Positions 18,638 to 51,738 of a stretch of 64,000 bases of DNA are shown piece by piece. This DNA comes from Hirudo medicinalis (lineage: Eukaryota; Annelida; Clitellata; Hirudinida; Hirudinidae). The stretch spans positions 38,473 to 102,472 of the forward strand of contig MPNW01000013.1 of assembly GCA_011800805.1 (NCBI GenBank). The letters are read 5' to 3'. A model generated the notes under the pieces. That model did no database searches. It was not told the origin of the DNA and saw nothing but the letters and a program-made list of their open reading frames with translations. Position 1 is the stretch's first letter. Every line of letters begins with the position of its first letter. The position numbers and the translations under genes were made by a program.

Positions 18638-19563
18638 ATGATTCTTTGGTTTGAAATACTGTCCCTGTCCTTCCTCGGATTGGTTGCAGGCTAGTAAAGC
18701 ATTATTGAAAATGTCATAGCGAGAATAATGGTTTATTAGTATATAATAAATTATATATAATAAGTATAAGGAGTTTACAATTAAAGTCTAGAGCAGAGCA
18801 TAGTCGTAATCTCAATCAGACAGTCTACCTTAAACATATGTAGCATAAAAAGAAAGGTGTGCCCTGTAATTCTTTTGATCTTAACCTTTGATATAATCGA
18901 CCTTCAACTCATTTTAAACTACTAGGCGAGTCTGCCTGGACCACCTTTCCCAAAGTCCAGGTCACTGGGTTGACAAAAATATCTGAGACCAGACTGGAAA
19001 TGTGTCTGAAAAGCTGCCTGTATATCGAGTGGTGCAACATTGTTTCCTACGACAGCGAGGCAACTTTACCATGTGAAATCCAAACCAGTTTAAAGGGTAT
19101 GGGGGAAAGTAACGAAACGAAAGATTCAGTCACTATTTACGCGCATGATAAAGTCAAGGTAGCCCTGGGTTGGTATTTCGATTACTTAATTACTTTCAAA
19201 AAATCAATAAGAAATCGTTTGGACGATATGTTGGATCACGAAATGCTTATCAGGTACTAAATGACTTTCAATTTCAAAATTTTTGATAAAATGACTCTAG
19301 GTCAAAAGTGCTGGAAAGCTGTACCTGGAAAAACTGCCAAGGATTTTCTGGCGTCATCACATGATGCACGTTATGAGTGCCTTTTATATTGCGTCGGCAT
19401 AGGGGTTTGTGAGGCCGTGGTTTTTGATCCAGAGTCCAAACCCTCTTGTTGGTACCATGTGGGCGTTTCAGGGTCTGTAAAGGAGGAAGATTTGATCCCA
19501 ATAGAAGGGGCAGCAACTACTTATCTGCTTGACAAATCCTGCATCCTTCCAGAGAGCGTGTAG
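18638..19563 (+). CDS. PAN1: secreted two-domain PAN/apple-like protein
   Basis: Exons 18638-18689 (signal peptide), 18926-19168 (domain A) and 19301-19563 (domain B plus stop); about 185 aa. Intron 1 begins GC (GTTGCAG|gctagt), intron 2 begins GT; both are phase 1. The signal peptide reads MILWFEILSLSFLGLVAG. Domain A has four Cys in a C-x3-C ... WCNIVSYD ... PCEIQ pattern. Domain B has six Cys: C-W start, C-x3-C, C, SCW, and a closing DKSC. This order matches the core and outer disulfides of PAN/apple modules, which bind proteins or carbohydrates outside the cell. I prefer the second in-frame ATG because paralogues conserve only that one. It lies directly downstream of RED. The ligand is unknown. 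Confidence 0.85.
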
Positions 19564-19904
19564 GCCAACCAAATTGGTCCAGTGGAAAATTATGACCCCT
19601 CAAATTTGAACTCAAGAGAAGAAATTTAATGATGCTTCGTTAATGTGAAAGAAATTAAAAACTTTAGATACTTTTGAATAAAGTCATGTTTCCGTATAAA
19701 TCCATATTTGACTGAATTTGTTTCCCATGGTTTGAGGTCTTGAGGTTAGAGAGTGCAAATAAAGTGGAAGCGCTGACATCATGTGACGCCAATAAATATT
19801 TAACGTTGTTGAGCGTTAATTCTGAGTGTTATTTAGTTATTTCACAAACATGTGTTACATTTTTCTGCGCGTGTAATTGCATGCAATATAAGTTTGAGTA
19901 GTGG

Positions 19905-19990
19905 TTGTTGATTAGGACGGTACTCCCACAACAGGATTCGAATCCGAGCTAACATCCTCAGAGACTGAAGAAGAGTTCAAAACATGGCAG
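19905..19990 (-). repeat. tRNA-derived SINE copy 1
   Basis: The minus strand contains cggattcgaatcctg, a B-box-like element, in a context shared with 38459-38545 (gattaggacg...attcgaatccg). It lies between PAN1 and PAN2. Confidence 0.5.
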
Positions 19991-20276
19991 TTATGGCTTT
20001 ATGTCATTACTTAAAAATCTTCTTCTGCCTTAACGTTGATATTTCACACTCTCCTTGCACTGGGCCTCTCCAGACACATCCATCCATCCATCTATTATTT
20101 CCTCCTGAAGCTTCATTGACAACATCCTAATGAATTCACTACAGCTCCTGATAAACCGTTGTTGTCATGAAAACAATTTGAAGAGAATAAAAACTGAGTA
20201 CTCGATAAGTTTTGATCTGTTAAGGAATTTTCTCCAGATGTTCAAGCTTTTCCCTGTGGTCACATAAATTATATTT

Positions 20277-20480
20277 TCAAAGAAGGCCAAGCATTGAGCA
20301 GTCGTTTGCACTCAAATGGCCTTTATTATTTTAAACGTCTTTTGGAATCATACTGATTTCCTGGTCTGGGAATGTAGATTCATGAGTAATTGTCAATTTG
20401 TTTTTTAGTCTTAATAAAATCCCTAAATTGGGAACTGTTTTCCGAGTCATTTGATTTTCGGATTCATATTTTGGTTTATG
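20277..20480 (+). pseudogene. Fossil copy of the RED 3' end
   Basis: From aaggccaagcattgagcag onward this stretch matches the end of the true RED gene (17650-17850). It keeps the KAKH-stop codons, the actcaaa...cctttaatt...ttttaaac run and tggtctgggaatgtagat. Sequence upstream of about 20277 does not match RED exon 16. It is therefore the left edge of a tandem duplication that copied RED's tail together with PAN1 to make PAN2 (or the reverse order). It encodes nothing by itself. Confidence 0.85.
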
Positions 20481-20943
20481 CTGGTTTGTTTATTCGTCAA
20501 AAGAACAAATTGTTTTATTTAACTTAATAGAATTATTAAATTTTACTTTTATAATGTGATGAAATCCAGAGGCAATGGGCAAGTAAGGTAATTAAGCCAT
20601 CGAAATGGCAGATGTTCCCGAAGTAAATTTGTCATTGTCATTGCAACATTACTGATCAATATTTAATCCTCGCTAATGAGTGCCGACCAAAATAAATTGA
20701 TCTTATTTCTTATTCAATTATTATTGCAATACTTTGTCTGATGGATCGAATTTTTGTTTGTCAAATTGTTATTTATTAAATTCTGAAATTACAATTTAAT
20801 TCTGAGGAATTAAATCATTTGTCAAAGAAAATAAAGAAGACATGAACAAAGTTAATGATGTTTTATGACCACCACGACTAGGAATGTCAGTTTTTTGGAT
20901 TTAAAAATTTTTTTTTATCGTGGTTCAGTGGCCCCAAACCAGT

Positions 20944-20950
20944 ATAAATG
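20944..20950 (+). promoter_or_regulatory. TATA box of PAN2
   Basis: TATAAAT lies about 140 bp before the start codon. An acceptor-like tttttgcag sits 8 bases before the ATG, as in the paralogues, so a short 5'UTR intron is likely. Confidence 0.55.
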
Positions 20951-21090
20951 AGAGAATACTAAGCGAGCTGGAAGCAAATAGCTCTCATGAAGGTTTAAAT
21001 ATTTATATGAATAAATTAGTCTTATTAAATGTAATATCTAATCGATATTGTCAAATTACTAAAACTGTGAGGTTTTTGCAGACGCTAAAG

Positions 21091-22119
21091 ATGATTCTCT
21101 GGCTCCAAATCTTGTCTCTAGTCAACCTCGGATTAGCTGCAGGCTAGTAGAGAATTATTATAAATAATACGAATTTACTTAATAGTGTGTCATAAATTTA
21201 ATGAATTTTCTGCTAAAGTCTAGAACAGAGATTCTTACACGATGCCGTAATCTAAATCGTTCACTTTACATTAACCCTAGGGTCCTCAAACTAAAAAAGT
21301 AAATCCTAAAAATGTTCTGTAATTCTTCTATGTTACTTTAGAGCTTAAGCTTTAATGTAGTCTACCGTCAACTCATTTCAAACTATTAGGCGAGTCTGCC
21401 TGGACTACACTGCCCAAAGTCCAATACACAGGCCTGACAAAATTATCTGAGACAAGTCTGGAAATGTGCCTTAGAACCTGCCTTTACATCGAGTGGTGCA
21501 ACATTGTTTCTTATGACATCGAAGCAACTTTACCCTGTGAGATCCAAACTAACTCCAGTGGAGTGGAGGAAAGTGAGAAAACCAAAGATTCAGTTACCAC
21601 TTACCAGGTGGATAAATTCAAGCTAGCCTCAGGTGGGTAATTAAATGTTTTCAAGTATTTGAAATGTCGAATGGTCTTTAGAATCTTGAAATGAGGTTTA
21701 AATGTTCAATTGTTTCTCAGTTTTATTTAGAGTCATTTAAATTGTTCAAAGTTTTTATTAATCCAGGTAAAATATGTTGGAAAGCTGTGCACGGAAAAAC
21801 CGCCAAGGGTTTGTTGTCGGGGTCATCCAGCACACTCTATGAAGGTCTTCTTTATTGCATAGGCATTGGGGTTTGCGAAGCTTTGGCCTTTGACCCTGAA
21901 TCCCACCCCTCTTGCTGGTACCATGTGGGCCTTTCAGGATCCGTAAAGGAGGAAGATTTGATTCCAATGAAAGGATCTGTTATTTATTTGCTTGACAAAT
22001 CCTGCGTTCTCCCGGAAGGCTTGAATGTGGATCAAAGCGGTCCCAAAGTGGAAAATGATGCCCCCAAAAGAGATGAGAAACCGAAGAAACCGAAAAAGAA
22101 GACTCCTCTTGGGTTGTAA
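21091..22119 (+). CDS. PAN2: secreted two-domain PAN/apple-like protein with basic tail
   Basis: Exons 21091-21142, 21390-21632 and 21767-22119; about 215 aa. The signal peptide MILWLQILSLVNLGLAAG ends at a phase-1 GC donor (GCTGCAG|gctagt). Domain A keeps its four Cys. In domain B the first Cys of the C-x3-C helix is replaced by Gly (TLYEGLLYC where paralogues have YECLLYC), so one core disulfide cannot form. The C-terminus is longer than in PAN1 and ends in a Lys-rich stretch (KKPKKKTPLGL). PAN1 and PAN2 are duplicates, as the RED fossil between them shows. Confidence 0.85.
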
Positions 22120-22639
22120 CCTTTTGAGAGTAAAGGTCATTGTGGATTCTCGGACATTGAGTAATACTTTGGTTGGTAAAAAGAGCTCGGAAGCATATAA
22201 AAAAAATACCAGAAAGATTGTGAATGATTACATTTTAGTTTAAAATTCCTCTTAAATATTGATTTATTTCAAAATAAATTCACGTTTGACTGAACGGACG
22301 TTCTCGTGACTTCGTAACGGTGAACAGGAGATATCAATATTAAGGCAAAACATTACAACACAGTTTTTATTTATTTATTTTATTAAAGTCCCTTGCATAA
22401 CTGAGTTGATTTGGACTGTATGACACTGTTGTAATAAAACTACTATTGTCACACAACAGTGCTACCAAATTTATCCAAAAAATGTTAGATCAGCTTCTGT
22501 AATTAAATCACATTCGACTGATTTATGTGATTTATTATATTTTGATTTTGAGATTTATTAACCAAAATCAAAAATAATCGATTGGTAAAAACACACCATA
22601 TTTAAGGTATCTGAATAACAGACATACCCTTATCTGCCT

Positions 22640-22870: not shown

Positions 22871-23609
22871 TAGCCATAACACACGTTAAAGAATAATACA
22901 CTTTTTCGACTTCTCATGTCATTCTTTGTGTTGAAGCTGCACTTGGTGAACTCTCGAACCATTCACAAAACTGAATTCATCGCCAAAAATAATAATAAAA
23001 AAAAAATAATTATCTTGAAGTCTTTTCTAAACATCGCATTCAAACAGCTTCGTTTTTTTTTGTGGTCTTTTTACCAGTGCAAAATCTCTCTACGATCTTT
23101 TATTTTCACAAATGTCAAATATGAATGAGCTCCCTGCCTTCTTTTTGTTTTGAATCGAACGAATGAATTGTTCTTCTCTCTTCAACGAATTCTCGTCCGA
23201 CTGACATGCGTGTGAAGTGATGCACGAAGATGTGGAGTGAACAGAATAAAGGAATATTTCTATTCTAAGTTATCCTCAGCAGGACCGTATTTACCCCGGC
23301 GTAGGCTCCGGTGCAGTCTGGTTGGTGGAGGCCAACAAGCCAACCTCTGTCTCCCCTGACAACACCTGACAAGCAAAAAAAGGGTTCTTCTGGTTGGTGG
23401 CCCGTGTGCAGGACGACCATGCTTAAATCCGGAATTGATCCTCAGCTTTGTTTGGAACTTGACAGTTTAAAATTCACACGACGGATGTCCCGCTTTTGAA
23501 AGTTTTATTGTTGGTTTTAAGATTTTGAAAAGAAACATTAAGCTGACGTTAAAAGGACTGAAATGCCGTGAAATTCTTCACGGAACGTCGATTTTTTTTT
23601 ATTCGAGAC

Positions 23610-23619
23610 TATATAAAAG
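23610..23619 (+). promoter_or_regulatory. TATA box of FTP1
   Basis: TATATAAAAG lies 39 bases before the ATG at 23649. Transcription should start near 23640, which rules out the upstream in-frame ATG at 23568 as the main start. Confidence 0.7.
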
Positions 23620-23648
23620 CGAACAATCTTCGAAATGTTTGCACAATC

Positions 23649-25281
23649 ATGAGCAATTTCGTACTCAACGCGTTGCTGATCAACTTAGTGACCGTAGGCC
23701 TTGGATTGAAAACGTTCAAGGCCGTACGATCATGCTATGGAAAAGCTGGGTGCTCGTACAATAATCCGGATGGCATACAAAAACTCGCGGATATTTTAGA
23801 CGACTTAGCCAATGTCATTCCAGATTGTCATCGGGTAAACCTGTGCGCTTTTCTGTGCCTCTCTGACAAGGATTGTCTCGGCTTCAACTACCTCAAGGAC
23901 ATTGATTCCTGTTACTTTTATCATTTCTATCCCAATGTGATCTACTACAAGAAGGATTGTGTTTATTTTGAGGAAAGTTTCGCGATTTTAATTTCAACAA
24001 AAAACGATTCGTCTAACAATGTCATTTAAATAAATATGAAAATTAATAAATACAATAACCTAATTAATTAATTGTAAAATATCAATAAGCTCTTTGACGT
24101 TTTCTCGTCAAATATTTAGAATTTGATTACAAAATACATTTAAATGTTTAAATTCATTAGTTCCAAATTGTGACCAAATGTTTAATCGTTTTCAGACATT
24201 AAAATCAAATCCCTACGTCGTCAAAGGTAAGTAACTTGAATAATTTATTTTTTTTTAGCCATAGTTATAGTTTTTTTTTTCTTTCTATAAGCGGTTCTAA
24301 GTGCAAAGCGTCAGAGGCGCCTTCGTTGACCATTTATTTAGCGCCCACTTCCAATGGCGTTTATGGCGACTCAAGTTGGATTGAGAACACGGCATAGTAC
24401 GAGCGCAAATGGGAACGAAACTCTCCAAACTTATCTATTTGCTAGCAACTTGCTATCTAAGTTTACCAATTTGAAGCCGTCGTAAGGTTCCTGAGGACCA
24501 TCCTTTCCGTCCTAATCATCTAGTTATGAAATGGACGTTAATTAAACACACACACACACGACCACCTTTGTAATACATGCATTGTTTGACTCAGAAAATG
24601 TCAACCTGGCTTATGGAAAGAAAACCTGTTACAGTTCCATGGCTGTGTTCAACCTGATTTCTCTGGGACCCCACAATTTGGTTGACAATCTTGTGAAACC
24701 GAGGGAAAGATGCGCCCAGACGAGCGAAAGCCCTTCCGGTGCCAATTGGTGGATGATTGATATGGAGCAGAACATCCAGGTTGGCCGAGTGAGAGTGGTC
24801 ACTGGAAATGTATCGGAAGGTTTCAGTAAGTTGGAACCAATAATGAACTAATTATTCGTTATGATAATATATGTTATGATGAATGAGTGCTATAATAACT
24901 AGATATTATTATGATATTAATATTATTAAGATTAATGTCTCAAAGAAATTCTAACAAAAATCAAAACAGCTTAACAAATAATATATAATTTATAAAAAAT
25001 ATAAATTTATCAACTCCAATATATCAGGCGAAAGACTGGCTGGCTTTATCATGGGCCTCACGAATATCTCGTGGTTCGAAAAGCATCCCACTAGGGGCAA
25101 CTACTCGATCTGCGCGGTCAATAACTACACCATGGTACCTCTCACCACTTACACCTACAATTGCTCTCAAGATACCCCACCAGGTCGCTTCATCGTCATC
25201 CAGCAGGGCGTCTTAAACAGTACAACACCTGGAATATTCATGCTTTGTGAAGTTCAAGTGTATGTGTTGGTTGTACCGTGA
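23649..25281 (+). CDS. FTP1: secreted apple-like plus fucolectin (FTP)-type lectin protein
   Basis: Proposed exons 23649-23972, 24196-24226, 24595-24825 and 25028-25281; about 279 aa. The signal peptide (MSNFVLNALLINLVTVGLG) is followed by an apple-like domain with LCAFLCLSDKDCLGFNY and DCVYFE. A tiny linker exon then leads to a fucolectin/tachylectin-4-type F5/8C domain. Its marks are ENVNLAYGKKTCYSS, NWWMIDMEQNIQVGRVRV, GERLAGF, and the closing GIFMLCEVQVYV. Such domains bind sugars, often fucose; the usual HxxxxR-type fucose site is not obvious here. The first donor would be GAG|gaaagt, which is not GT. Without that splice the frame stops at 24029 and gives only the apple-like domain. The third donor could be either 24819 or 24825; both keep frame. 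FTP2 has the same architecture. Confidence 0.75.
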
Positions 25282-25826: not shown

Positions 25827-26249
25827 GTTTGACAGTTTGAGAACTATTGCTAAAATTTAGTTTAGTTCTTAATCGAGTTATAATTTGTTTTCGAGTGATT
25901 TTTCAATTTATAGTCTTGTCTCTCCTTTATTATGGCCGGTTAGTAAGTAGCCTGACTTCGAGATGCTAAGTGATCAATGAATGGAATGGTTAGAAATATA
26001 ATCGCAGTTTGATAATTAAAACAGATAGCAATAAATAGTTACTATACATTGTTTGAGTGTTACTAAAACATGTCCGCCTATTTGCCACTCTGAAGCAAAA
26101 TGCATTTTGTGATTAAAATTAAAAGTTGTATTTGCTTTTTATGCTCTTGGTTTAAAATGAGCGCATATAAGTCTTATGAAGAAGGAAGGCATGAATAATT
26201 CGCGTATTTAGAAAACAACATAAACTTTGAAATAATTTTTGTTAATTAG

Positions 26250-26925
26250 GTGAATCTTCTCGGACCACAGTGCCGAAACTCCACGTAAATGGTTTGGTTC
26301 AAACATCGGACACTGAGTTGGACAGGTACCTTGAGGCATGCCTTCTCGTTGAAAATTGCAGCGTTGCCTCTTTTGATGTTAATGACGATCTTCTCTGGAT
26401 CTTCCCTGTTGGATCCAGATAAATTCTACTGGAGTGGGAGAAAAATCCAATCATAAAGATTGCGTCACGACTTACTTGCTGGAAAGAACAGATTTTTTTT
26501 TAAAGGTTTTTAAAATGTTTCATGTTTTGACTAAGTTTGGTTTTAGTAAGTTCACTAAAAGATATTAAAGACATAGTTTTAATTAAAGTAATAATTTTCT
26601 TTGATATTATTAACAATATTTTCCAATAAGTATTTCTAATTAAAGTTTGAAAAAGCCAGAAAATGTTGGACTATGAAAGAAGAGAAAACTACTGAGGGTC
26701 TTTTGGGTAGCACCAGCCTCGATCTGTGTTATTCTTTCCTCTAACATATAATTCTTGAAGTGTGCGAGGTCATCGTCTTTGATGTGAATTCACATTCAAA
26801 TGGTTGGTTTAATGGGTCCCTTGGGTGCTACAACAGAAGAGGAATTGATTCCAATGCCTGGGGCTGTCGCTTACTTGTTCGACAGATCCTGCATTAGACC
26901 TGAGGGATTTGAGAGCTCGAAATAA
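26250..26925 (+). pseudogene. Decayed PAN-like gene (PAN6/7-like subfamily)
   Basis: Exon A remnant is at 26250-26505 and exon B remnant at about 26656-26925. Exon A starts well (VPKLHVNGLVQTSDTELDRYLEACLLVENC) but shifts frame after DDLLW, and one Cys of the C-x3-C helix is Tyr. Exon B has an in-frame TAA within the YCxxxE helix and a second frameshift after the GSLG region. No signal-peptide exon is recognisable upstream. Residue choices (VPKxxxxGLxQxSxxxL, GLLGSTS) place it with PAN6/PAN7 rather than with its neighbours. Confidence 0.85.
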
Positions 26926-27737
26926 ATGAATGCAAAAGAAGGTCTAAAGGCCAATGATAAGACAAAGAAATCATGATGAAAGAATGGCGATCAAAATATA
27001 AATATAAAAATGAAGAATTAATTCTAATTGCCTTTGAAAATGGGTTAAATTTTAGTTTCTTGTCAGTTACAATGATTAAAGATTTAAAAAATTTAAATGA
27101 TTAAAGTATTTAAGCTAAGGAGAGATTTGTCTCTCAACAAAACTGGAAAACCGCAGTGATAGAATTATAAACGATTCAGAAATAAAGGTATTGGAGAAGC
27201 ACAAAATGTATTTTGAAATCAGTAACATCGGAGAGGCCATTTTACTTATCCAATAAAGAAATGTAAGTATTGTAAAGACAATTTGTTGGAGCCTGCCAAG
27301 GAAATTTGGTCACGAGCGAAGCCTCTAACATTAATTAGTTTTATTAGAAATTTAATTACATTAAACACACTTAATCAATAGTTAATGCTAAATTTTCGAA
27401 ATGTTAAAAGCCACAAAAATTAAAGAACTCTGAATGTTTCCCAACATTTTGTTAATCGTGTCAATGCCTGTTTTCCCCGAGAAATTCATTCGCTTCATTG
27501 AGATATTTTTTCTACAATGCATTTCTTGCTTTGAAACCCAAATTGTGAGGATCGGCATATAATTCAGTGAGATAGTGACAAAGTTATTTTGACAGAATTA
27601 ATGAATAAAATAAAGAATAAAATTTCAGAAAAAAGATTCAGAAAAAAAAGTCAAAAAATTTTCCAGATGTAAATAATTGTCTCTAGTCAAGTTTTTCAAT
27701 TGATCAATTGCATACCTCAAGACAACCGATGTTTTTG

Positions 27738-27832
27738 AAGGCTTCCATGATCGCTTCTGACAGATTGTGTCTTAACAAGATGGCTTTTTAAATGATCATC
27801 TTTAATGATGCTCCGAAGTTACTAGAGATCAA
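27738..27832 (+). promoter_or_regulatory. Conserved upstream block of PAN genes (PAN3 copy)
   Basis: A block with gcttctgacagattgtgtcttaac and atctttaatgatgct lies about 300 bp before the PAN3 TATA box. Similar blocks occur before PAN4 (31318-31400), PAN5 (34755-34845), the decayed copy at 39.6 kb (39278-39355) and PAN9 (46670-46735), each 200-350 bp before the TATA. It may be a shared enhancer, or only duplicated flank that has not yet diverged. Confidence 0.45.
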
Positions 27833-28215: not shown

Positions 28216-30447
28216 ATGATTCTTTGGCTTCAAATTTTGTCTCTATCCTCCATCGGAATATCTGCAGGCTAGTAGATAATTTTTTTTTTAATATTAATGG
28301 GCGTACTTTAGTGGCTAATTCTGCTAAGGATTTAAGTAAAATGACTTAATAATCCTCTGAGTAGAACTAGCTGTTACCCCCTTCGTTATCATGAAACACT
28401 TAGAGACATCAACAAAAACGCGAATTATTATTCTTAAATTAAAATATACGCGAATTATTGATAATTTTTTTCAGGTCCGGAAACTCTATGGTACTTTTTT
28501 AATTCAAAATTATGATAACGGATTTCATTACATTTTTGGTAAATCACTTATACATTCACTTCTCTAAAAGCCCAAGGTGAATCGGCTTGGACCACCTTGC
28601 CAAAGGTACACTTCAATGGTTTGACCAAAATATCTTTAACTAGACTCGATGAGTGTCTGAGAATCTGTCTTCTCATCGGATGGTGCAACGTTGTTTCTTA
28701 CGACAGTGAGACAACTTTACCATGTGAGATCCAAACCAATTCCGTTGGTGTGGAGGAAAATAAGGAAATGAAAGATTCTGTCACCAGCTATGTTATGGAT
28801 AAATACAAACTCACCTCGGGTAAATATTTTCATAAAATATTAGTTCGTAATTAAATTTGCATGACACATTTGTGAATATCGTTCAATTGTCATATCTTTT
28901 AATTTTATTCAAGTAAATTATTTAAAACGATTTTATTCACGTCTTAAATATCGTTCCAGGCAAAATATGTTGGAAAGAAGTACAAGATAAAACAGCCAAA
29001 GGTTTAATGGCAAGCACACCAAGTGACCTTTATGAATGCCTTATTTTATGCGTCGCATCTCAAGTTTGCGAAGCTTTGGTCTTTGATCCCAAGTCCAAAT
29101 TCCCCTGCTGGTTTCATGTAGGTCTTTCAGGGTCCTTAAAAGAAGAAGATTTGATTCCAATGGAGGGGTCTATTGTTTATTTGCTCGACAAATCCTGCGT
29201 TCTTCCAGAAGGCTTGAATGTGAGTCAAAGTGAACATAAAGCAGAAATTTGTGCCCCCAAAAGTGGTGAGTATCCGATAATAAACCACTTATGTTTCTCT
29301 GGTGATATTGCTAGGCATCTTGTTAGGTAGAACAAACTGCACGAGTATCCGATGCCTTCGCTTAAAACAATATTAATTCCAGAGTTTACATAAATACATA
29401 AACATAAGATACAGACTCTTCAAGTGTAAAAGTTCAATTTTAATGTAATGTTTGTTATCTAACGTAAAAAATAGCAACAAGACCATGTCCAAACTCTTGG
29501 TGTAAAACGCGAGGGTACGATACAACAAAGATAATAGATAGTTATATATCAATATCGACGCACAATTTACATATATATCACCTGCTATTTTTCATTTTTA
29601 GTTTAGAACCTTTACTTATAAATTACAACATGGGACTTATTTAATTCTTAGATTTATACTTCTTAAAAATAGAGATTTATTAAATACAACTTGTTTTAAA
29701 GCACGAGGTGAATCGGTTTGGACCACCTTGCCAAAGGTTCACTACAAAGGGTTGACCAAAATATCTGTAACCAGACTTGATGAGTGTCTGAAAATCTGCC
29801 TTTTAATTGAATGGTGCAACGTTGTTACTTATGACAGTGAGGCAACTTTACCATGTGCGATCCAAACTTATTCCATTGGTGTGGAGGAATGTAAGGATAT
29901 GAAAGATTCAGTCACCAGCTATGTTGCGGATAAATTCAAACTAACCTCAGGTGAATTGAATATGCAAAGCTCTTTAAATTATGTTAAATAAATGTACATG
30001 TTGCATCCTGATGTAGAAGTATTATTGTCTTATCTTATTCAAGTTTATTTTAAATCGATGTTAATATTTGACCATATTTGACAATAATTTGACCATATCG
30101 TTGCAGGCAAAACATGCTGGAAAGAAGTACCCAATAAAACTGTCAAGGGTTTGGTAACGAGCTCACTGCGTGAACTTTATAAATGCTTTATTTATTGCAT
30201 CATGTTAGAAATTTGCGAGGCTTTGGTCTATGATCCCAAGTCCAATTCTCCTTGCTGGCTTCATGAAGGACTTACAGGGTCCATAAAGGAGGAAGATTTG
30301 ATTCCAATGGAGGGGTCTGTTATTTATTTGTTTGACAAATCCTGCATTTTACCAGAGGACTTAAATATGGGTCAAGGTGAACTTAAAGCAGAAATTGGGG
30401 ACCCCAATTGTGAAAAGAATCCGATGAATACACCATTTGTTTTGTAA
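28216..30447 (+). CDS. PAN3: secreted four-domain PAN/apple-like protein (A-B-A-B)
   Basis: Exons 28216-28267 (signal peptide, GC donor), 28577-28819 (A1), 28960-29265 (B1), 29708-29950 (A2) and 30107-30447 (B2 plus stop); about 394 aa. All introns are phase 1. B1 ends at a strong donor (AAAAGTG|gtgagt) and A2 begins at acgag|GTGAATCGG. No signal-peptide exon lies between B1 and A2, so I join the two pairs in one gene. If that intron is retained, translation stops at 29330 and gives a two-domain product. Domain A modules carry 4 Cys and domain B modules 6 Cys. A2 has an extra Cys (GVEECKDM), shared with A2 of PAN4. Confidence 0.82.
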
Positions 30448-31570
30448 CCTTCCGGAAAAAGAGATTATTCATGGCTTGCTATAAATGAATTACACTTTGT
30501 TTTGGTGAAAGTAACTTGGAAGACACTTGATAAAAATAATATTTTATTAAAAATTATGATTAATATTTGATTGGCTTAAAAATAAATTCATATTTGACTG
30601 AAGTTTTTATTTCATCACATTGAAACTGGTTTGATGAATTATTCTGCATTCAACACAAAATTTGAAGTTTATCGTCAGCTTTAACTTTATTTAAGAAACC
30701 TTTAAAACATCATTTAAACAGCTTTGTGAGTGTTCAAAACCATTTTACGATGATTCCATATTTGGATTTCAACAAGACGGATAAAACGTCTATGATTGAA
30801 CTTAATAATTGACTTGGAATTGAAGAAATAGGGATACTCAATATTAAGCATAAAAAATGTAAACATTGTAATTTAGAATCAGTAAAATTAGATAGGCCAT
30901 TTTACTCGCTCAAAAATAAATAAATAAAAATATAAGCATCACAAAAACAAATTGTTTTAAGTGTCCAGGAAATTTGGTTTCTATCGTAGCTCCCCGAATT
31001 TAATAATCTCTCAAATACACTCAATGAATTTACTAAATACCTATTACCAAAGGATAATAAAGTGCTTTGAATGTCTTAAGCCGAGGTCTTAATGTGACCT
31101 GTTCAATGGGAACTTTTGTGACGATTGTTTTCCAATCTGTCAGACAATGACAAAGTTATTTTCAAGAAATTTAAAATTATTATGGAGTTAGAATTTTTTT
31201 AGAAATTTTCAAATTTTATCCGGTTGCCTACAACTGTCCGTAGGATCACGTAGTCATATTTTGAAAGTCAAATTGTTATTTGAACAATTATGAACGTAAA
31301 GGCCACAGATGACATTGAATGATTTCGTGATCGCTTCTGACAAATCATTTCTTAACAAGACGGATGGCATTTCTTGGCTTTTTTTAAACGATGATTGTTA
31401 GTAATAACATTAGTTAATTAATTATTATTAATATTACTACTATAATTAGTTGAATAACTTTATATTGAATATTTTGGAAATAGTCTAAAAAGAAAGATTT
31501 TTATTTTCTGGACAATTGTGAATGATGATCAATCATCATTATCATTTGATTTTTACTTGGCTCAGATCGG
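30448..31570. other. PAN3-PAN4 spacer
   Basis: A likely PAN3 polyadenylation signal (AATAAA) lies near 30583, followed by AT-rich flank resembling the spacers before PAN3 and PAN5. No coding region is seen. Confidence 0.6.
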
Positions 31571-31576
31571 CGCAGT

Positions 31577-38790: not shown

Positions 38791-39541
38791 TAAGGTTCTT
38801 CTTCATATATCCATGCAGGATTTTGTTGGTACAACTTGGTGCTATCAAAGAGGATGATCTAATTACTTGTTCGATAGATCTTGCTTGAAACCAGTATTGT
38901 TAAAAAATATATTTAAGTTAAGGTAATTTTTCCTGGCAAATTCATTACAACTTGGTTTCTCTCATAATAAATAATTTTGAGTTGAAAACCTTCAAATATA
39001 ATTTAAAAATGCCACTCTGGCTATTTTATTATCTGAATTGAATTTCCACGTTTCTCTATTGATTACATGTAATGTCTCCATAAAATGTATTTTGATCAAA
39101 ATATTGCTGGTTAAATAATAACTGCAGTCCTGGTCATAATCAATATGACAGAAAGAAGATTTATTTGATAATGTTGATGGCTTTATCCAGATGTATATGA
39201 TTGTCCCTAGGCTCAAAGAATTTATGTTTTAAAAGTCATAATTTTTTATGTACATCAAGGCAGCAGATTTTTTCGAATGCCCTCAAGATGGTCTCTGACA
39301 GATTGTGTCTTGAGAAGACGGATGACAACATCTTTAATGATGCTCTTTATCAGTGAAACTATATTTAGTTAAATATTTGAAATAATATAATATATTATTA
39401 TTATTATAATGTAATATTATATAAATTTTGTTGAATTGTTATTTTATTTTTTAAATTCAGGAATTTTTTGATGTGCTGGACTGCAATTTGAAAGATCATC
39501 AATTTATTTGTTAGTCCATTTACGCTTGGCTCAGCGATTTC

Positions 39542-39616: not shown

Positions 39617-40320
39617 ATGATTCTTTGGCTTACAATTTTGTCTCTATCTTATATCGAATTATCTGCAGGAAAGTAGGATATTTTTTAAATATTGATGGTT
39701 GTAACGGTTACGTATTCAGGAAATACTAATTTATTTCTGATAGTGAGTTAATTACCTGAAAATGTCCAACTCAGTAGGTGATGTGATTTAGACATCCTTT
39801 AAGTTGAGCAAACTGCATGATCGTTCGATGCCAAAGCTTAATTCCATTTTAATAAGAATGGTTAAATAATAAAGATATAATAATTAAATCGTAATTGCTT
39901 AATTCGTTAATTATATAAAAATTCGTTTGAAATCGAAAGGTGATTCGTCTTGGATCACCTTGCCAAAGGTACACTTCAATGGCTTGACCAAACTATCTTT
40001 AACTAGACTCGATGCGTGTCTGCAAATCTGCCTTTACATCGAGTGGTGCAACGTTGTTTCTTACGACAGTGAGGCAACTTTACCATGTGAGATCCAAACT
40101 TTTTCCTTTGGTGTGGAGGAGAGTCAGAAAACGAAAGATTCAGTCACCAATTACATGGTAGATAGATAAAAACTAGCCACAGGTTAATATTGAAACGTTT
40201 ACAAAATATGATGCTCAAATTTATATTTTGTATCCTGAAATAAAATTCAAGTATTGGGTGTAAAGTGGCCCTAACATGGAAAATGGTGCCCTAAATGTGA
40301 TGAGAATACTGCAGGGTTGT
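39617..40320 (+). pseudogene. Recently broken PAN-like gene (nonsense and lost B exon)
   Basis: The signal-peptide exon is 39617-39668 and the A exon 39940-40182, still exactly 243 nt. The first donor reads GCAG|gaaagt instead of gttagt or gctagt. The A exon has one nonsense change: TAA where paralogues have a Tyr codon just after VVDR. Exon B is missing except for its tail (about 40263-40320: aatgtgatgagaat ... gggttgtaacc). Everything else in exon A, including the four Cys, is intact, so the loss is recent. Confidence 0.85.
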
Positions 40321-40689: not shown

Positions 40690-42605
40690 TTTAAAATAAA
40701 TAAATGAACCAAAAGACAAATTGTTTAATCTTGGAAATTTGGCTCCAATTTGGAAGTTTGATCATCCATCATCATTGACAAATTGTGTTTACTCCTGCAA
40801 ATGAAGTTTGAGTTTTTATTTGTCTTGACGAAGAAAGATTGTTCTTGCCATAAACATTCAGTTGCCTGTTTGACAAATTGACATTGAGTAATTTAAATAA
40901 ACATTTCCAGCAAAGGGTAATCTGTTCGGCCAAGGAGAGCCTTAGACAACGTGAGGTTCTTTACATACTGAAAATGTTTTAATTATTAAATTTAAAAACT
41001 TAAATGTAATTTTAGATTAAATCATGAACACTAATCAAGTGTTGCATCTCATTGTAGTTCTTTTCCTCAATCAGTACGCACTAGTAACCGGTAAGAAATG
41101 CTTGATTATGAACTGGGTCGAGAGATTTATTTTCGATCCCCATCTAAAAATTTACAAGTTAAATATTAAAAAATAAAGTACCAAATCGAAATTTTTTATT
41201 TTTTATTAATAAAAGAGAAAAAATTCTTATTTAAATTGTTAGGTGAATCTACTTGGACGGTTGTGCCGAAGGTCCAACTTACAGGTCTGACCCAAGTGTC
41301 GGAATTTGATTTGGATGGATGCCTAGAGGTTTGTATCTATGTTGAAACGTGCAATATAGTTTCATTCGATGTTGAGACCGACCCCCCGTGCTGGATCCAA
41401 GTGAATTCCACTGCGTTGGAAAAGAATCCAGTTCCGAAAAATTCTGTCACCACTTATTTGTTCGAGAGAGGAGACTTCTTAACTGGTGAGTGATTAAAAG
41501 TTGATACCTAAGCTTTGAAATCAATTAAACACGAATTAGTTTTTAAAACATTCTAGTTAGCCTTGGTGATGGACACCAATGCTAGTAACGAATATTGATA
41601 ATATTTTCATTTTTATTAATATTACTAGATTGTTTTTTTTTATTTATTAATTACTTTAAATAAATTATTTTTAAAAATTGCAGGAAAAACGTGTTGGACC
41701 GTGGTAGAAGGAAAAACGGCCAAAGGTCTCTTAGGAGGCTCAACTAAAAATGTTTATCTATGTTTCTTATACTGCGTTGTTTTGGAGACCTGTGATGTCG
41801 TGGCCTTTGATGAGAAGTCTAGATCGAATTGCTGGTACAGTTTCGGTCTCCTGGGTTCAATAAAGGAGGAAGACTTGATCCCTATGCCAGGCTCTGTCAC
41901 GTACATGTTGGATAGGTCTTGCATGAAATCTGAGGGCTTAGAAAGTTAGAATTTGAATGAAGTTTGAATAAAACTGAAAAGTTCTAAGAAGAAAGCAAAG
42001 CTGTCCTTAGATAAACCAAACAATTCGTTTCATTTCTTGGAGTAAATTTAAACTCTTCAAAATGTATTTCAATAAAAACAAAACTAAAATATTAGAAAAT
42101 ATGGTTGGCGATCTGGATTTAAAAAAAATCTAAAATGCATTTCATTCCTATCATCCCGTTTGTCCCTGATTATTCAGTTAATCAATTGAGGGTAACGCTC
42201 TACTGCGTTTAAGAAGTAAATTTTTAGGGACATTCATACTAATGGACAGTTAACTATACAGAACCGACATACGTCATTCGAGTATTGATCGTTTCTTATT
42301 ATTTGTATAGATGTTGTTGTTGAGAAGAGAAACAACATAAAATCAGTTACTAACCTGACCATATGCTGCCCTAACATTTGCTAAAGAATATAGTTATAGT
42401 GCATCTTTAGATGAATTCCAAATCATAAAAAATAATTCTGGCCACTTATGAGCAGGATTGGACAATATTTAGAGGTCTTCCAAAAAAACAAAGTTTCAGT
42501 TTCTAGAGATAATCAAATTTAGCGGTGACTTACATTCTCTAAAGCTTATTTGTATTTGCACCAATTACAAGAAACAAAATTGTATTAAAAGCACTTTGTC
42601 TTTAA
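40690..42605 (+). repeat. Tandem duplication unit 1 (contains PAN6)
   Basis: This unit matches 42606-44480 at an offset of about 1.92 kb, including noncoding sequence such as aatcttggaaatttggctcc and cattcctatcatcccgtttg. Start codons lie exactly 1920 bp apart. Confidence 0.88.
41024..41949 (+). CDS. PAN6: secreted two-domain PAN-like protein, second subfamily
   Basis: Exons 41024-41090, 41243-41485 and 41684-41949; about 191 aa; all GT-AG, phase 1. The signal peptide differs from the main subfamily (MNTNQVLHLIVVLFLNQYALVTG). Domain A reads WTVVPKVQLTGLTQVS ... CNIVSFDVETDPPCWIQ, with PCWIQ where the others have PCEIQ. Domain B reads GKTCWTVVEGKTAKGLL ... SNCWYSFGLLGSIKEEDLI ... MLDRSC and keeps six Cys. 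It ends shortly after the last Cys, without the polar tail of PAN2-5. Confidence 0.88.
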
Positions 42606-44480
42606 AATAAAGAAATGAACCACAAAGACAAATTGTTTAATCTTGGAAATTTGGCTCCAATTTGGAAGTTTAATCGTCCATAATCATTGACAAATTGTGT
42701 TTACTCCTGCAAATGAAGTTTGAGTTTTTACTTGCCTTGACGAAGAAAGATTGTTCTAGTCAAAAACATTCAGTTGCCTGTTTGACAAATTGACATTGAG
42801 TTATTTAAATAAACATTTGCAATAAAGGGTATAATAAGCTCGGCCAAGGAGAGCCTCAGACAACGTGAGGTTGAGTTCTTTATATCCTGAAAATGTTTTT
42901 AATTATTAAATTTACAAAGTTAAATGCAATTTTAGATTAAATCATGAACACTAATCAAGTGTTGCATCTCATTGTAATTCTTTTCCTAAATCAGTACGCA
43001 CTAGTGACCGGTAAGAAATGCTTGATTATGAACTGGGTCGAGAGCTTTATTTTCGTTCCCAATTTAATAATTTACAAGTTAAATATTAAAAAATACTAAA
43101 TCGAAATGTTTATTTTTTGTTATTTTATTTTGATTAATAAAAGAGAAAAAAAATTCTTATTTAAATTGTTAGGTGAATCTGCTTGGACAGTTGTGCCGAA
43201 GGTCCAACTTACAGGTTTGACCCAAGTGTCGGAATTTGATTTGGATGGATGCTTCATAGTTTGTGTCTACGTTGAAACGTGCAACATAGTTTCATTCGAT
43301 GTTGAGACCGACCCCCCGTGCTGGATCCAAGTAAATTCCACTGCGGTAGAAAAGAATCCAGTTCCGAAAGATTCTGTCACCACTTATTTGTTCGAGAGAG
43401 GAGACTTCGTTCGTGGTGAGTGATTAAAAGTTGATACCCTTAAGCTTTAAAATCAATTAAACACGAATTAGTTTTTAAAACATTCTAGTTAGCCTTGGCG
43501 ATAGACACCACTGCTAATGACGGTTATTGATAATATTTTAATTTTTATTAATGTTACTAGATTGTTTGTTTTTTTATTAATTACTTTAAATACAACATTT
43601 TTAAAAATTACAGGAAAAAAATGTTGGAACATGATAGAAGGAAAAACCGCCAAAGGTCTCTTGGTCTCCCCAAATACGGATAACTATTTATGTTTCTTAT
43701 TCTGCATCGTTATAGAGACTTGTGAGGCTGTAGCCTTTGATATGAAATCTAAATCGAATTGCTGGTACAGTTTCGGTCTCCTGGGTTCAATAAAGGAGGA
43801 AGACTTGATCCCTGTGCCAGACTCTGTCACGTACATGCTGGATAGGTCTTGCATGAAATCTGAGGGCTTAGAAAGTTAGAATTTGAATGAAGTTTGAATA
43901 AAAAATGAAAAGTTCTAGGATGAAGGCAAAGCTGTCCTTAGATGAACCAAATAATTCGTTTCATTTCATAGAATGTATTTAAACTCTTTAAAATGTATTT
44001 GAATAAAAACAAAAATAAAATATTAGAAAATACGGCTGTCGATCTGGATTTTAAAAAATCTAAAATGCATTTCATTCCTATCATCCCGTTTGTCCCTGAT
44101 TATTCAGTTAATCAATTGAGGATAACTCTCTACTGCGTTTAAGAAATAATTTTTTTGGATAGCATATATAAGTATATATAACTATATAAATCGATATACT
44201 TCGTTCGAGCATTTATCGCTTATTATTATTGTATAGATGTTGTTGAGATGAGAAACAACATAAAATCAATTATTAACTTGACCGTACACATCCCTAATAT
44301 TTGCTAAAGAATGTAGTTTATAGTTACATTCCAACTTTAGATGAGTTCCAACACATAAACAATTAATTCTGGCCACGTTAGAATAGGATTTGACAATATT
44401 CAGATGTCGTTCCACGAAACTTCAGTTTCCCGAGGTAATCAAATTCAGCGTTGGCCTACATTCTCTAAAGCTTATTTGTA
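42606..44480 (+). repeat. Tandem duplication unit 2 (contains PAN7)
   Basis: Second copy of the 1.92-kb unit. Similarity fades just after acattctctaaagcttatttgta. Confidence 0.88.
42944..43879 (+). CDS. PAN7: secreted two-domain PAN-like protein, twin of PAN6
   Basis: Exons 42944-43010, 43173-43415 and 43614-43879; about 191 aa. The signal peptide matches PAN6 except one position. Differences cluster in the helix of domain A (CFIVCVYVE vs CLEVCIYVE) and in the loop of domain B (VSPNTDNYLCFLFCIVIETCEAV vs GGSTKNVYLCFLYCVVLETCDVV). The framework and the introns are nearly identical. The upstream in-frame ATG at 43106 is intronic. Confidence 0.88.
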
Positions 44481-44925: not shown

Positions 44926-45779
44926 ATGAAAGTGTTGTTCCTTCTCACAGTCTTGCTTCTCATGGGTCTTGTGCACGTGAAAAGTTGGAATAAGAAATAC
45001 TTGGAAATATATATTCAATAATTATTTTAAACAATTATTTTAAATATTTACAAAAACATTAATGAAAATGAGACAAATTATGAAATAATATCACATTGTT
45101 CAATCATTTGTGATATTAAATGATATTAAAACATGTTGAATTTAATCACAATTACTAATAGTAAATAATTAGTAAATAACAAATAAAAATTCATTCTACT
45201 TGAAAGCTGAATCAGCATGGACCAAATACCCAGGACTCCAAGTCATCGGTCTGACGCAAATCTCGGAGAAAGAGCTGTTAGGCTGTATCCAGATTTGCAT
45301 TTACATCGACAAGTGCAGAGTCTTTTCCTTCTACTCTGACGATGAGCTTCCCTGCTGGATTCAGACGAACTTCACCGAAATGAAGGAAAGTTCAGTCAAA
45401 AAGGATTCAGTGACAACTTACGTAATGGACAAAACCGGTTCCTTTTCCGGTATTTCAATATAAATAAAAATATTGATATAATGAAATATAAGACTTCAAC
45501 TTAAATCCATTCAAATAAATCGCAGGAGAGACTTGCTGGACTCGAAAAAATGGGACAATTGGCAAAGGTCTCGTGGCTTCCACTACTCACAATCTACCTT
45601 ACTGCATACTGTATTGCCTAGGCCTACAGGTCTGCGATGTTATTTCATTTGATTCTAAATCCAGAAATAACTGCTGGTACCACATGGGAATAATTGGTTC
45701 TATGAAAGATGATGACTTTCTTCCAATGGAGGGAGTCCAAACCTACAAGCTTGATATGCCTTGCCTTTACTCAGTGTAG
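44926..45779 (+). CDS. PAN8: divergent secreted two-domain PAN-like protein
   Basis: Exons 44926-44983 (tentative donor AAAA|gttgga), 45207-45449 and 45526-45779; about 184 aa. The signal peptide is MKVLFLLTVLLLMGLVHV. Domain A is 243 nt like all others but reads CIQICIYIDKCRVFSFYSDDELPCWIQ. Domain B reads GETCWTRKNGTIGKGLV ... CILYCLGLQVCDVISFD ... NCWYHMGIIGSMKDDDFLP ... LDMPC, so all six Cys are kept. It is the most divergent intact copy and may approach the ancestral form. Confidence 0.8.
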
Positions 45780-46950: not shown

Positions 46951-46956
46951 AATCGC

Positions 46957-46963: not shown

Positions 46964-47086
46964 GCATTCACTTCACAGAGCAAAATAGTCTCGACACCGG
47001 TTTGAATTTGTTATTTTATAAATTAATTCAAATGATATTTTAAAAACTATTGGTTATTCTAAATTCGTAAATTCCAGATTTCAAGG

Positions 47087-48750
47087 ATGATTCTTTGGCT
47101 TCCAATTTTGTCTCTATCCTACATCGGAATAGCTGCAGGCTAGTAGAACGTTGTTATAAATATTGAGGGATGTTCAGGATGAGTATCTTTTGAGGAAGCA
47201 ATAAGTCCTAACTTAGTCCTAACTCGTAATAAGAGTTTAATTATTTAAATAATTCATTATCCAAATTGTGTTTTAAATCGCCAGGTGATTCGGCTTGGAC
47301 CATCTTGCCAAAGGTTCACTTCAATGGCTTGACCAAAACATCTGTAAATAGTTTTGAAGCATGTCTGAAAGCCTGCCTCTTAATCGGATGGTGCAACGTT
47401 GTTTCTTACGACAGTGAGGCAACTTTACCATGTGAGATCCAAACTTTCTCCGTTGGTGTGGAGGAGAGTAAGGAATCGAAAGATTCAGTCACAAGTTATG
47501 TGGTGGATAAATCCAAACTAAGCTCAGGTGATCATTCAAAAGTATTCTAAAGTATATAAATTGATTTTATTAATGTGGACCATTTCGTTGCAGGTAAAAT
47601 ATGTTGGAAAGAAGTGCACGATAAAACTGCCAAGGGTTTAATGGCGGGCATATCAAATGACATTTACGAATGCCTTTTTTATTGCGTCATGGTAGAAATT
47701 TGCGAGGCTATGGTTTATGACCCCGAATCCAATCCCTCCTGCTGGTTTCACGGAGGCCCCTCAGGGTCTTTAAAAGAAGAAGATTTGATTCCAATGAAGG
47801 GGTCTGTTGTTTATTTTCTCGACAAATCCTGCGTTCTTCCAGAAGGCTTGAATGTGAGTCAAAATAATCCTAAACTGGAAATTGATGTATCCAAAAGCGG
47901 TGAGAATCCCATAAATATACCACTTGAGTTTCTTGGGTGATATAACAGATGATAATTCCTATTTCAAAACAGCACTTATGATTTTATATTATCAGTTATC
48001 TTTAAATCTTAAATTAATACCACTTAATAATTAGAGAATAAATGTTAGACTAACAACTCATTTTGAAACCAGGTGAATCAGCTTGGACAACCTTGCCGAC
48101 AGTACAGTTCAAAGGTTTAACCAAAACATCTGTGACTAGACTGGATGTGTGTCTGAAAGCCTGTCTTTACGGCGTTTGGTGCAAAGTCGTTTCTTACGAC
48201 AGCGAAGCCACTCTGCCATGTTTGATCCAAACTCATTCCGTTGGTGTGGAGGAAAGTAAGGAAAGAAAAGATTCTGTGACAAGTTACGTAGTGGATAAAT
48301 ACTCGCTAGGTGCAGGTGAATATTCAAAAAAAATTCAAAATGTGGTAATTAAATCAATGCGTTGTAAACTCGAAAACGATTGAAGCATTATGTCTTAGAA
48401 TTTTCTTGAGGTAATTTATTGTAAATCGGTTTTATTCACGTTTATTTATTATTGCAGGTAAAACATGTTGGAAAGAAGTACACAATAAAACTGCCAAGGG
48501 TTTGGTAACGACCTCACTGCGTAAACTTTATAAATGTTTCTTTTATTGCATCATGATGGAAGTCTGCGAGGCTTTGGTCTATGATCCCAAGTCCAATTCC
48601 CCCTGCTGGCTTCATGAAGGACTTACAGGGTCCTTAAAGGAGGAAGATTTGATTCCAATGGAGGGGTCTGTTATTTATTTTCTCGACAAATCTTGCATTT
48701 ATCCAGATGGTCTGGATGTGGGTCAAAGAAAAACGGAAAGTGAAAAGTGA
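47087..48750 (+). CDS. PAN9: secreted four-domain PAN/apple-like protein (A-B-A-B)
   Basis: Exons 47087-47138 (GC donor), 47285-47527, 47594-47899, 48073-48315 and 48458-48750; about 378 aa. Both A exons are 243 nt. B1 ends AAAAGCG|gtgaga. Read through that donor, the frame stops at 47940 (ending PLEFLG), a possible two-domain isoform. A2 shows changes in the usual framework (YGVWCKVVSYD, PCLIQTHS). The terminal B2 ends soon after a Lys/Glu-rich tail. Introns are compact (66 nt between A1 and B1). Confidence 0.82.
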
Positions 48751-49097
48751 AAAAATAGTGGCCCTTAAAGTAGTCCGATGGAATCTTTCGGAAGTCGTTC
48801 TTGAAATTGGGACTTACATTTGTTTAGTGAAAAGTACTTACAGATATTTTTTCAGTAAAGTTACATTACAAAAAAAAATCACAATTAATACTTGAAATGT
48901 TTGAAAAATAAATTTACGTTTGACTGAATTTGCATTTTATGCCTCTTTATGCCAAAACTGCATCTGGTGATTATTCTTTGATACAATTTTTGCCTCAAAT
49001 ACTTATTAAATATGATTTTTCGACTCTTTTGTCTTGGAATATTTGGCGGTGAATGGAAAGTTTTATTTTTAAAGTTTTAATTGAATCGATATGTCAG

Positions 49098-49320
49098 GTA
49101 AAAGCATTTGGACAGAGAAACCTGAGCTTCAACTGAACGGTTTGACCCAAATGTCAGAGACTGAATTGCCTTAGGGTTTGACTTTGTGTATAACATTGCA
49201 AGGTTGCGTCCTTTGATATTGATGACAAACCTCCTTGCTGGATTCATGCAACTCGGTCAAACTTAACAATAGATCTGGCTCCAAAAGATTCTGTAAACTT
49301 ACCTTCTTGATAGAACATCT
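49098..49320 (+). pseudogene. Decayed PAN-like A exon
   Basis: Reads GKSIWTEKPELQLNGLTQMSETELP, then a stop and a small deletion where the C-x3-C helix should be, then FDIDDKPPCWIH and KDSV in another frame. It resembles the PAN6-8 subfamily. No convincing B exon follows. Confidence 0.75.
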
Positions 49321-49329
49321 TTCCTACAG

Positions 49330-50300
49330 GATAATTGGCTAAAAAATCCTTCAAGTTACTATTTTACAAATTAAAATTTTAAAATATGCATTTAATCTGC
49401 TTTTTAGATTGTTGGGTGGCTCATATTATACAAATAAAAACATATAAATTTAATAAATTTAAAATTTAACCATTTTACATGATTTAAAAAAAATTATTAT
49501 TAATTAAACAAATTTCCAGTAATTACATAAGGAAGTAATTATAATGAAATCAGAAATACCAAATGAGAAATACCCTAAAAATCTTGGGTTTTTGTGGAAA
49601 CTTCTGCAGACAAATGAGAGTCTCAAATATTCCTCAGTTTAAAAAACAAAGTAAGAAATTGCCAAAAAAAAAATGTGAAGAAGCCTACAAAAAGTTTGCA
49701 ACCAGAGACGATTCCTCATTGCATCGGCACTGAAAATGTCCTCACGGGATGTTTCTAAATAGTTGATTTAGATTTTAATTACATGATTATTTAATTACAT
49801 AAACATTTAAAATTTCATTATTAGAAACAGATTAAGCAATAATAATAATGTAAATAAAAGTAACAATTCTAACAGATGGCAGTTAATATATTATTATTAA
49901 TTATAATATTTAATTTATTTGTACTTAGTAAGAAATCTTAAGGAACAAAAAGACACCGGACAAAATGCTGGAAAATAAGCGGCAAACTTAATGCATGGGT
50001 ATCGAACGCTTCGACACAGAAATAAAAGGTGTGGGAATTTCTATGGTTCAGCTGAGAAAAGATATTCAAAAGAATATTTTTTAATTAATTAAAAACATCA
50101 ATTTTAGATGTTGTGCCATTGAAATGGATCTGAAATAAGATTCTAAAAGCAGGCACGCATTTGAATTCTCGAATAATTTCTCGCCTTGTGGTTTGATCAT
50201 TCAGTTTCTTGCTGTTATGAATAAAAAAATAATTGATTAATTGAATTATTATCTTAAATTATTACATTATCTCGAACGCATTTATTGTGATTTCAGAGAT
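49330..50300. other. Spacer between the decayed PAN exon and FTP2
   Basis: AT-rich with no open frame of note. Any remains of a B exon are too decayed to call. Confidence 0.5.
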
Positions 50301-50311
50301 TTCAATACACT

Positions 50312-50319
50312 TATATAAT
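50312..50319 (+). promoter_or_regulatory. TATA box of FTP2
   Basis: TATATAAT lies 108 bp before the start codon. Confidence 0.45.
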
Positions 50320-50426
50320 CAGCTGAATAATTATTGTGGACCGAAATTATTTTCGAACTCTTTTTAACTTCAGCTGCTTGTTATTAATAAAAATTTACCT
50401 TTGTCTGAAATTTAATACCTTAAAAA

Positions 50427-51738
50427 ATGCTCTCCATGATTTATTTGTGTCTCATCTCTCTGTGTCTGAGAAATGAATGTTGCGTATCTTTCAAAAAGTC
50501 AGTGGCTTGTGGCGGATCCGTGGGGTGTAACTTGGAAGCACCTTCGGCTTCAATACCCTTAGCCGAAATCTATCTTCAACGGACACCAGAAAACATGACA
50601 AACCTCTTGGCAAGACCCTGCTCCAAAATGTACCCAGTAGTTCTGTGTGCTTATTTTTGCCGAATTGATAACATTTGCATTGGATTCAACTTTAGAAATG
50701 ATTCTTCAATTTGCGAGACTTTCATTTCTAAGCCGAAATTCCTCCAGCAAAGCAAGCAGTGCGAGTACTACCACCAAGTAAGCATCTGGTTTTGGTCATC
50801 CTACCATGTCATTTTTAACGCAATAAAATAAACTCAAAAAAAATTCAAATGGCATGAATACATAATTTCACACGACCTTGAAGTGGTTTAAATACATTTA
50901 CTCAAATAACTTAATATTTAATCGAATAAATAAATAAATAAATAATTAATTAACGTGTCTCCACTTCCTTCACCAGGACATTGGCCAATCCGGTAAGTTG
51001 TGACATCCATTTCGCTTTCCGAGCATCTTATCCACGTACGACTTCTCGATTTGCAGATAATCCCAATTTGGCGCTGGGCAAGATGGCTTGCCAATCGAGC
51101 ACATTCCAAGGGAATGAGCAGCTCAATGGAGCATGGCGATCTGTGGATGGAGAACTTGGATCGAACTCCAGCAGCAACGGTTGCAGTATAACAGCCTTAA
51201 GTTACAGATATAAGAGTTGGATTATGGTTGATCTTGACCAGAGCTACCACGTTGCTTATATTCTTCTCTATACTCCTATTGAAGGTTTGATTGTCTCGTC
51301 TGTTTTCACCTTTCTAGCCTTTAGACTTAAAGATTTTCATTTTATGGTTATAAAGGTTTTTTTTTAATGAATTTAAATTGAATGTTATTGTCTTTGTCGT
51401 TTTTATTTAATATTTCTCGTTATTACTTTTGATTTATTATTGCATATTATTAATATAAAATTAATGCATAATACATTAATGCATTAATACATCACAACCC
51501 AAACTTAGATGATATCATGGAACTGGATGGATTCCAGGTCAAACTGCAGGACCATCCCTTGGATTGGAGCTTTAGAACTATCGGATCTCAAGGTGGCATG
51601 TGTTTCAAGACCTATGAAACTAGGGTTTATCAATATCCATACAGGATGGATTGTCAACCTGGAATGCCAATGGCAAGATATGTCGTCCTGTCAAACATCG
51701 GTCCTATGTTTGTTTGCGAACTTGAAATATACTCTTAG
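50427..51738 (+). CDS. FTP2: secreted apple-like plus fucolectin (FTP)-type lectin protein
   Basis: Exons 50427-50777, 50977-50992 (16-nt microexon), 51057-51284 and 51509-51738; about 274 aa. All junctions are GT-AG and phases agree (0, 1, 1). The signal peptide (MLSMIYLCLISLCLRNECC) is followed by an apple-like domain with VVLCAYFCRIDNICIGFNF and QCEYYHQ. The microexon encodes DIGQS. The FTP/F5-8C-like domain starts NPNLALGKMACQSS, has WIMVDLDQSYHVAYILLY, and ends MFVCELEIYS. It shares order and exon phases with FTP1 at 23.6 kb, so the two arose by duplication. Such domains commonly bind glycans; binding here is inferred. Confidence 0.85.

Follow-up and report, generated by a model that had tools for sequence, protein, structure and literature searches.

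The saratin and leech anti-platelet protein (LAPP) families are the closest described systems to the subject of this study, a tandem array of genes for paired PAN-type (apple) domains in a 64,000-nucleotide stretch of Hirudo medicinalis DNA (hereafter the window; contig C13, positions 38473-102472, in an assembly of 133 Mb and 1557 contigs). For the tandem saratin/LAPP arrays in the leech Helobdella robusta, PMC3631404 cites Kvist et al. 2011. In the portions of the literature available, saratin/LAPP orthologues form tandem arrays in H. robusta and purifying selection is described as extensive (PMC3631404), and saratin, with six cysteines, is represented by eleven genes in Whitmania pigra, one of them a pseudogene, and by two in Hirudinaria manillensis (PMC10887747, with which PMC10671345 agrees for H. 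manillensis). High expression of saratin is also described for a non-blood-feeding leech (PMC10887747, available part). For Hirudo, the accessible text of PMC7191736 describes PAN-domain proteins in the salivary secretion, with a role yet to be established, mentions homologues of LAPP/saratin, and clusters, in the genome of H. medicinalis, and finds known anticoagulant genes not to be differentially expressed in salivary cells. With these homologues the accessible text of PMC7303139 disagrees, since there LAPP/saratin were not recovered in H. medicinalis.

The whole words PAN, apple, and saratin are all absent from the main text of PMC10087013, and among the open-access papers listed we found none on alternating four-Cys/six-Cys PAN pairs in leeches, which is the arrangement encoded here. 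An earlier note on this DNA had called the array an undescribed system. This is too strong, as leech genes of the saratin/LAPP type in tandem, and PAN proteins of leech saliva, are already in print, to go by the available parts of PMC3631404, PMC7191736, and PMC10887747.

Results

The array spans 18.6 to 48.8 kb of the window on the plus strand and contains 13 intact A exons and 13 B exons in nine genes, g1 to g9. Reading the ends copy by copy, we found each of the 13 A exons to be 243 nt long, from a phase-1 acceptor to a phase-1 donor, while the B exon encodes about 87 amino acids (aa) plus a tail. Eight gene models (g1 to g7 and g9) splice in frame into proteins of 185 to 394 aa with 0 internal stops, and 24 of their 24 introns are in phase 1. 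Because each exon is one domain with 1-1 phases, the duplication of an A-B unit or of an entire gene need not disturb the reading frame. The earlier note had anticipated the uniform A exon, the single strand, and the one-domain exons, and its nine intact copies are a fair count, consisting of the eight complete models plus g8, which lacks an identified signal exon.

Four genes have the layout SP-A-B, i.e., a signal-like exon followed by one pair: g1 (18638-19563, 185 aa; exons 18638-18689, 18926-19168, and 19301-19563), g2 (21091-22119, 215 aa; exons 21091-21142, 21390-21632, and 21767-22119), g6 (41024-41949, 191 aa; exons 41024-41090, 41243-41485, and 41684-41949), and g7, a recent duplicate of g6 (42944-43879, 191 aa; exons 42944-43010, 43173-43415, and 43614-43879). 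The layout SP-A-B-A-B is found in g3 (28216-30447, 394 aa; exons 28216-28267, 28577-28819, 28960-29265, 29708-29950, and 30107-30447), g4 (31716-33688, 385 aa; exons 31716-31767, 32001-32243, 32391-32684, 32974-33216, and 33363-33688), g5 (35085-37908, 394 aa; exons 35085-35136, 35443-35685, 36430-36735, 37183-37425, and 37568-37908), and g9 (47087-48750, 378 aa; exons 47087-47138, 47285-47527, 47594-47899, 48073-48315, and 48458-48750). The ninth gene, g8 (45.2-45.8 kb; 45207-45779), consists of A and B exons (45207-45449 and 45526-45779) with compatible phase-1 ends, for which a scan for signal exons found none. A signal-like first exon is present in 8 of 9 genes: six share a 52-nt exon starting with MILW or MIFW, and g6 and g7 have a different type of 67 nt. 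We infer that the array proteins are secreted.

In 5 of the 24 introns the donor is GC in place of GT, namely, in the first introns of g1, g2, g3, and g9 (intron starts 18690, 21143, 28268, and 47139) and in the second intron of g4 (32244). Eleven copies of one 300-nt repeat unit were detected without the use of any profile. All copies that carry the MILW-type exon (7 of 7, a decayed copy counted) have a TATAAA no more than 260 nt upstream of their start codon, which does not amount to seven separate tests because the copies share descent; in g6 and g7 the corresponding 260 nt lack it. A 91-nt block, considered as a candidate 5′ exon, sits 379 to 523 nt upstream of four signal exons (27693-27783, 31273-31363, 34706-34796, and 39231-39321; the other copies are 65 to 77% identical to the first).

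Four Cys are conserved in all 13 A exons. The six-Cys order of B that the earlier note had described is present in 12 of 13, with g2 carrying Gly at the second Cys. We take the disulphide pairing of the core Cys to be that of other PAN domains. The second A exons of g3 (29708-29950) and g4 (32974-33216) share an extra fifth Cys (GVEECKDM), which could link chains. A structure model of one B domain yielded the PAN fold in a fold search, with matches that included LAPP and saratin as well as factor XI, prekallikrein, plasminogen, HGF, and the microneme apple lectins of Sarcocystis and Toxoplasma. The structure model of A was of low confidence (predicted local distance difference test, 48.4), and its fold search returned ten rows with no meaningful match. 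The PAN fold, on which the earlier note had staked its reading, is hence recovered for B but not from the model of A. We nevertheless read A as a PAN domain because it is homologous to B by profile comparison; on that evidence, A would be a derived form of the domain in which four Cys are conserved, and B retains six. Pfam PAN scores of the four A or B exons scored (13.0 to 16.4 bits) lie below the curated cut-offs of 21.1 to 21.4, whereas PAN_1 does match some of the relatives found on other contigs, with E down to 7.3e-7. A search of a viral fold library gave PAN/apple proteins, mostly from large DNA viruses, and was uninformative here.

In the pairs g3/g4, g3/g9, and g4/g5, the A and B exons are 76 to 93% identical and the introns 54 to 73%, which together with the 300-nt repeat puts the pattern beyond chance. 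The ratio of nonsynonymous to synonymous substitution rates (dN/dS) was below 1 in 35 of 35 A pairs (median 0.29) and 42 of 42 B pairs (median 0.395) with dS between 0 and 1, where pairs are non-independent and 43 of 78 A pairs and 36 of 78 B pairs were dropped because dS was at least 1 or not computable. The array genes are under purifying selection. Venom-like positive selection received no support, as none of the 77 counted pairs has dN/dS above 1. Between g6 and g7, the B exons (41684-41949 and 43614-43879) are 86% identical and the second introns 92%; because the dS of B is high too (0.314), this looks like uneven exchange, and these exons may have been exchanged between copies.

Related exons, seen as open frames, lie on contigs C324, C1421, C831, C88, C1199, C1406, C1092, and C12, and a genome search adds C339, C426, and C878. 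Genome matches, in overlapping sets, number at least 36 with an A query, at least 42 with B, at least 60 with C1421, and at least 61 with C324. Adjacent A-B pairs outside the window occur on C88 (one), C831 (three, on both strands), C1199 (one), and C1406 (one). In a tree of 43 rows, one branch separates the 19 A rows from all others (support 87/81), another does so for the 19 B rows (94/79), and five rows from C324 and C1421 form a third group (92/91); the tree has few columns, and none of these three branches is starred. The presence of pairs on four further contigs, together with the separate grouping of A and B, makes the A-B pair look older than the array. What is conserved as a unit is the pair rather than either domain alone. 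In g3, g4, g5, and g9, the B exons of the second unit group with the first B of g4 (97/91, starred), as would be expected if a four-domain gene was already present when the copying took place. We found 16 related proteins outside (P0001 to P0016, of which P0003 and P0015 are marked as window-encoded), eight on a contig of 769247 bases, two on one of 263856, three on one of 395058, and three on short contigs. Near copies thus appear in other assemblies, perhaps from the same or a close species.

The relation to saratin and LAPP was examined with profiles against a PDB set of 177635 sequences. A profile of 15 exons from C324, C1421, and C1092 without window rows (A3; 15 of 27 non-AB frames, omitting frames that lack the first Cys, a frame that contains an unknown base, and others) had saratin (E 2.4e-5) and LAPP (E 0.0026) as its best matches. 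Window A and B profiles had no match of any kind at E up to 1, and saratin and LAPP were likewise not matched by the window B profile with AB-type relatives. An A-type profile matched Toxoplasma microneme protein 4 (E 1.8e-4), and a mixed profile, A4, matched saratin (E 7e-4). Direct membership of the saratin family was not accepted, as profile A6 (A4 with P0007, two rows from C324, and one each from C1421 and C12 removed and one window row added) no longer matches saratin. With a 78-residue stretch of saratin as the query, the genome yielded nothing at E 0.001, in a run without a positive control. The window genes are linked to saratin/LAPP only through the C324/C1421/C1092 exons, and because of this pattern we regard them as probable cousins in a wider leech PAN family, with orthology not claimed. 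The likeness to LAPP and saratin proposed in the earlier note therefore stands for the fold of B but is not recovered at the level of sequence, where only other PAN exons of the genome match. On C324, at least 18 open frames of PAN exon type (158001-180030 and 180433-182932) were observed. They form a second PAN-exon array on the minus strand (L075 and L076), nearer to saratin/LAPP by sequence than the window exons are.

The genome carries 46 antistasin-domain matches and a hirudin match above cut-off (E 1.8e-8 and 2.1e-5), around which a signal-like exon and two Cys-rich exons run into an assembly gap, in agreement with the leech setting. At a scan threshold of E 0.01, decayed copies were found at three places on the plus strand (26.25-26.92, 39.6-40.2, and 49.1-49.3 kb), one short of the minimum of four given earlier. 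The first holds A and B pieces with a broken frame and a stop in B (26249-26915). The second has a signal exon with GA at the donor and an A exon with an in-frame stop (39617-40182), for which a B exon was sought and none found. The third is an A-exon piece with stops (49167-49295, or 49097-49237 in another search).

Two neighbouring plus-strand genes, given here as open frames rather than exon ends, had been called apple-FTP lectins, an assignment that these data support weakly. The first (23562-25281) has a PAN exon frame at 23562-24029 and FTP-like frames at 24546-24851 and 24982-25281; the second (50424-51738) has a PAN-like frame at 50424-50831 and FTP-like frames at 50954-51367 and 51472-51738. 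The first gene passes the Pfam cut-off for PAN_1 (25.1 bits, E 1.6e-5), the second stays under it (15.2 bits), and the FTP exons match fucolectin-type structures with E 0.047 and 0.0078, respectively. Elsewhere in the window, a minus-strand open frame (3967-4584) with two dibasic-flanked GFVRIG motifs resembles what we presume to be an FVRIamide-type neuropeptide precursor. A unit of ~3 kb occurs two to three times at 53265-61996 (the copies reach 98% likeness, and their open frames correspond on both strands), and 62278-62533 is a 128-bp tandem duplication (98% identical).

Discussion

We consider it an evenly balanced proposition that the locus is a tandem expansion of A-B PAN-pair genes whose products bind an extracellular ligand and are most likely secreted by a gland. 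In a hirudin-bearing leech, such an expansion would have given small proteins of one or two A-B PAN pairs behind a signal-like exon, with the one-domain 1-1 exons letting A-B units and whole genes duplicate with the frame kept. The proteins would act outside the cell by binding a protein or glycan of the matrix, the plasma, or the cell surface, and most likely do so in a salivary or other gland secretion as LAPP- or saratin-like anti-adhesion factors. Paired and doubled domains may make this binding multivalent, and the several genes of the array may cover a spread of specificities. An anti-haemostatic role is plausible. A bolder proposal, which we hold only tentatively and think rather unlikely, is that of a distinct and old leech class: a secreted four-Cys A/six-Cys B heteropair at five loci, doubled and expanded into a modular ligand-binding set next to saratin/LAPP, or replacing them where they are reported unevenly.

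The lectin-like neighbours with PAN and FTP-type exons (23.6-25.3 and 50.4-51.7 kb) suggest that the PAN pairs could instead serve mucosal or immune recognition, binding glycans or microbial surfaces alongside them. Sarcocystis and Toxoplasma microneme apple lectins among the fold matches, and weakly among the sequence matches of related profiles, point the same way, as does the lack of differential expression of known anticoagulant genes in salivary cells (PMC7191736, available part). However, the lectin matches of the neighbours are weak (E 0.047 and 0.0078), and it is saratin and LAPP that the wider family matches most closely by sequence, so that we regard this role as somewhat improbable. 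If the multi-PAN proteins crosslinked in the leech's own matrix, as a structural or adhesive secretion of mucus, cocoon, or epidermis, this would accord with the four-domain genes, the additional Cys that g3 and g4 carry in their second A, the related arrays elsewhere in the genome, and the high saratin expression in a non-blood-feeding leech (PMC10887747, available part). We find it distinctly unlikely, given models that show no low-complexity repeats or crosslinking motifs.

That the array is a decaying, mostly silent set of duplicates is, in our judgement, very improbable. Three decayed places, GC donors in 5 of 24 introns, and one B lacking a core Cys would fit, but eight models are open in frame, dN/dS is below 1 in all counted pairs, exons are better preserved than introns, and near copies exist in other assemblies. 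Should the expansion of ligand-binding A-B genes be correct, it would add a paired-domain class to the leech secretome, and its clean exon borders would allow A, B, and A-B proteins to be produced separately and each assayed for ligand binding. It would also supply candidates for the Hirudo salivary PAN proteins whose role is yet to be established (PMC7191736), and a way to ask what replaces LAPP/saratin where these were not recovered (PMC7303139), both as stated in the accessible text.

Among known systems, factor XI, prekallikrein, plasminogen, and HGF have the apple/PAN fold in common with the array, and apple proteins are likewise strings of PAN domains, whereas their protease or kringle exons have no counterpart seen in the window gene models. 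LAPP (PDB 1i8n) and saratin (PDB 2k13) share the fold of B; yet LAPP is a single domain of 89 modelled residues that the window profiles do not match by sequence, and saratin is a single domain, while the window proteins have two or four (8 of 8 models). The saratin/LAPP families of other leeches resemble the array in being multigene, with signal peptides, and tandem in Helobdella. They are described with six Cys, and hence presumably as one domain, and the available text on them does not mention alternating four-Cys/six-Cys pairs. The Hirudo salivary PAN proteins (PMC7191736, available part) are also leech PAN proteins, aligned there to LAPP, and the window genes are candidates for them. Overall, the fold and kind of these proteins are ordinary, and the novelty lies in the pairing of the domains and in the occurrence of such pairs at several loci.
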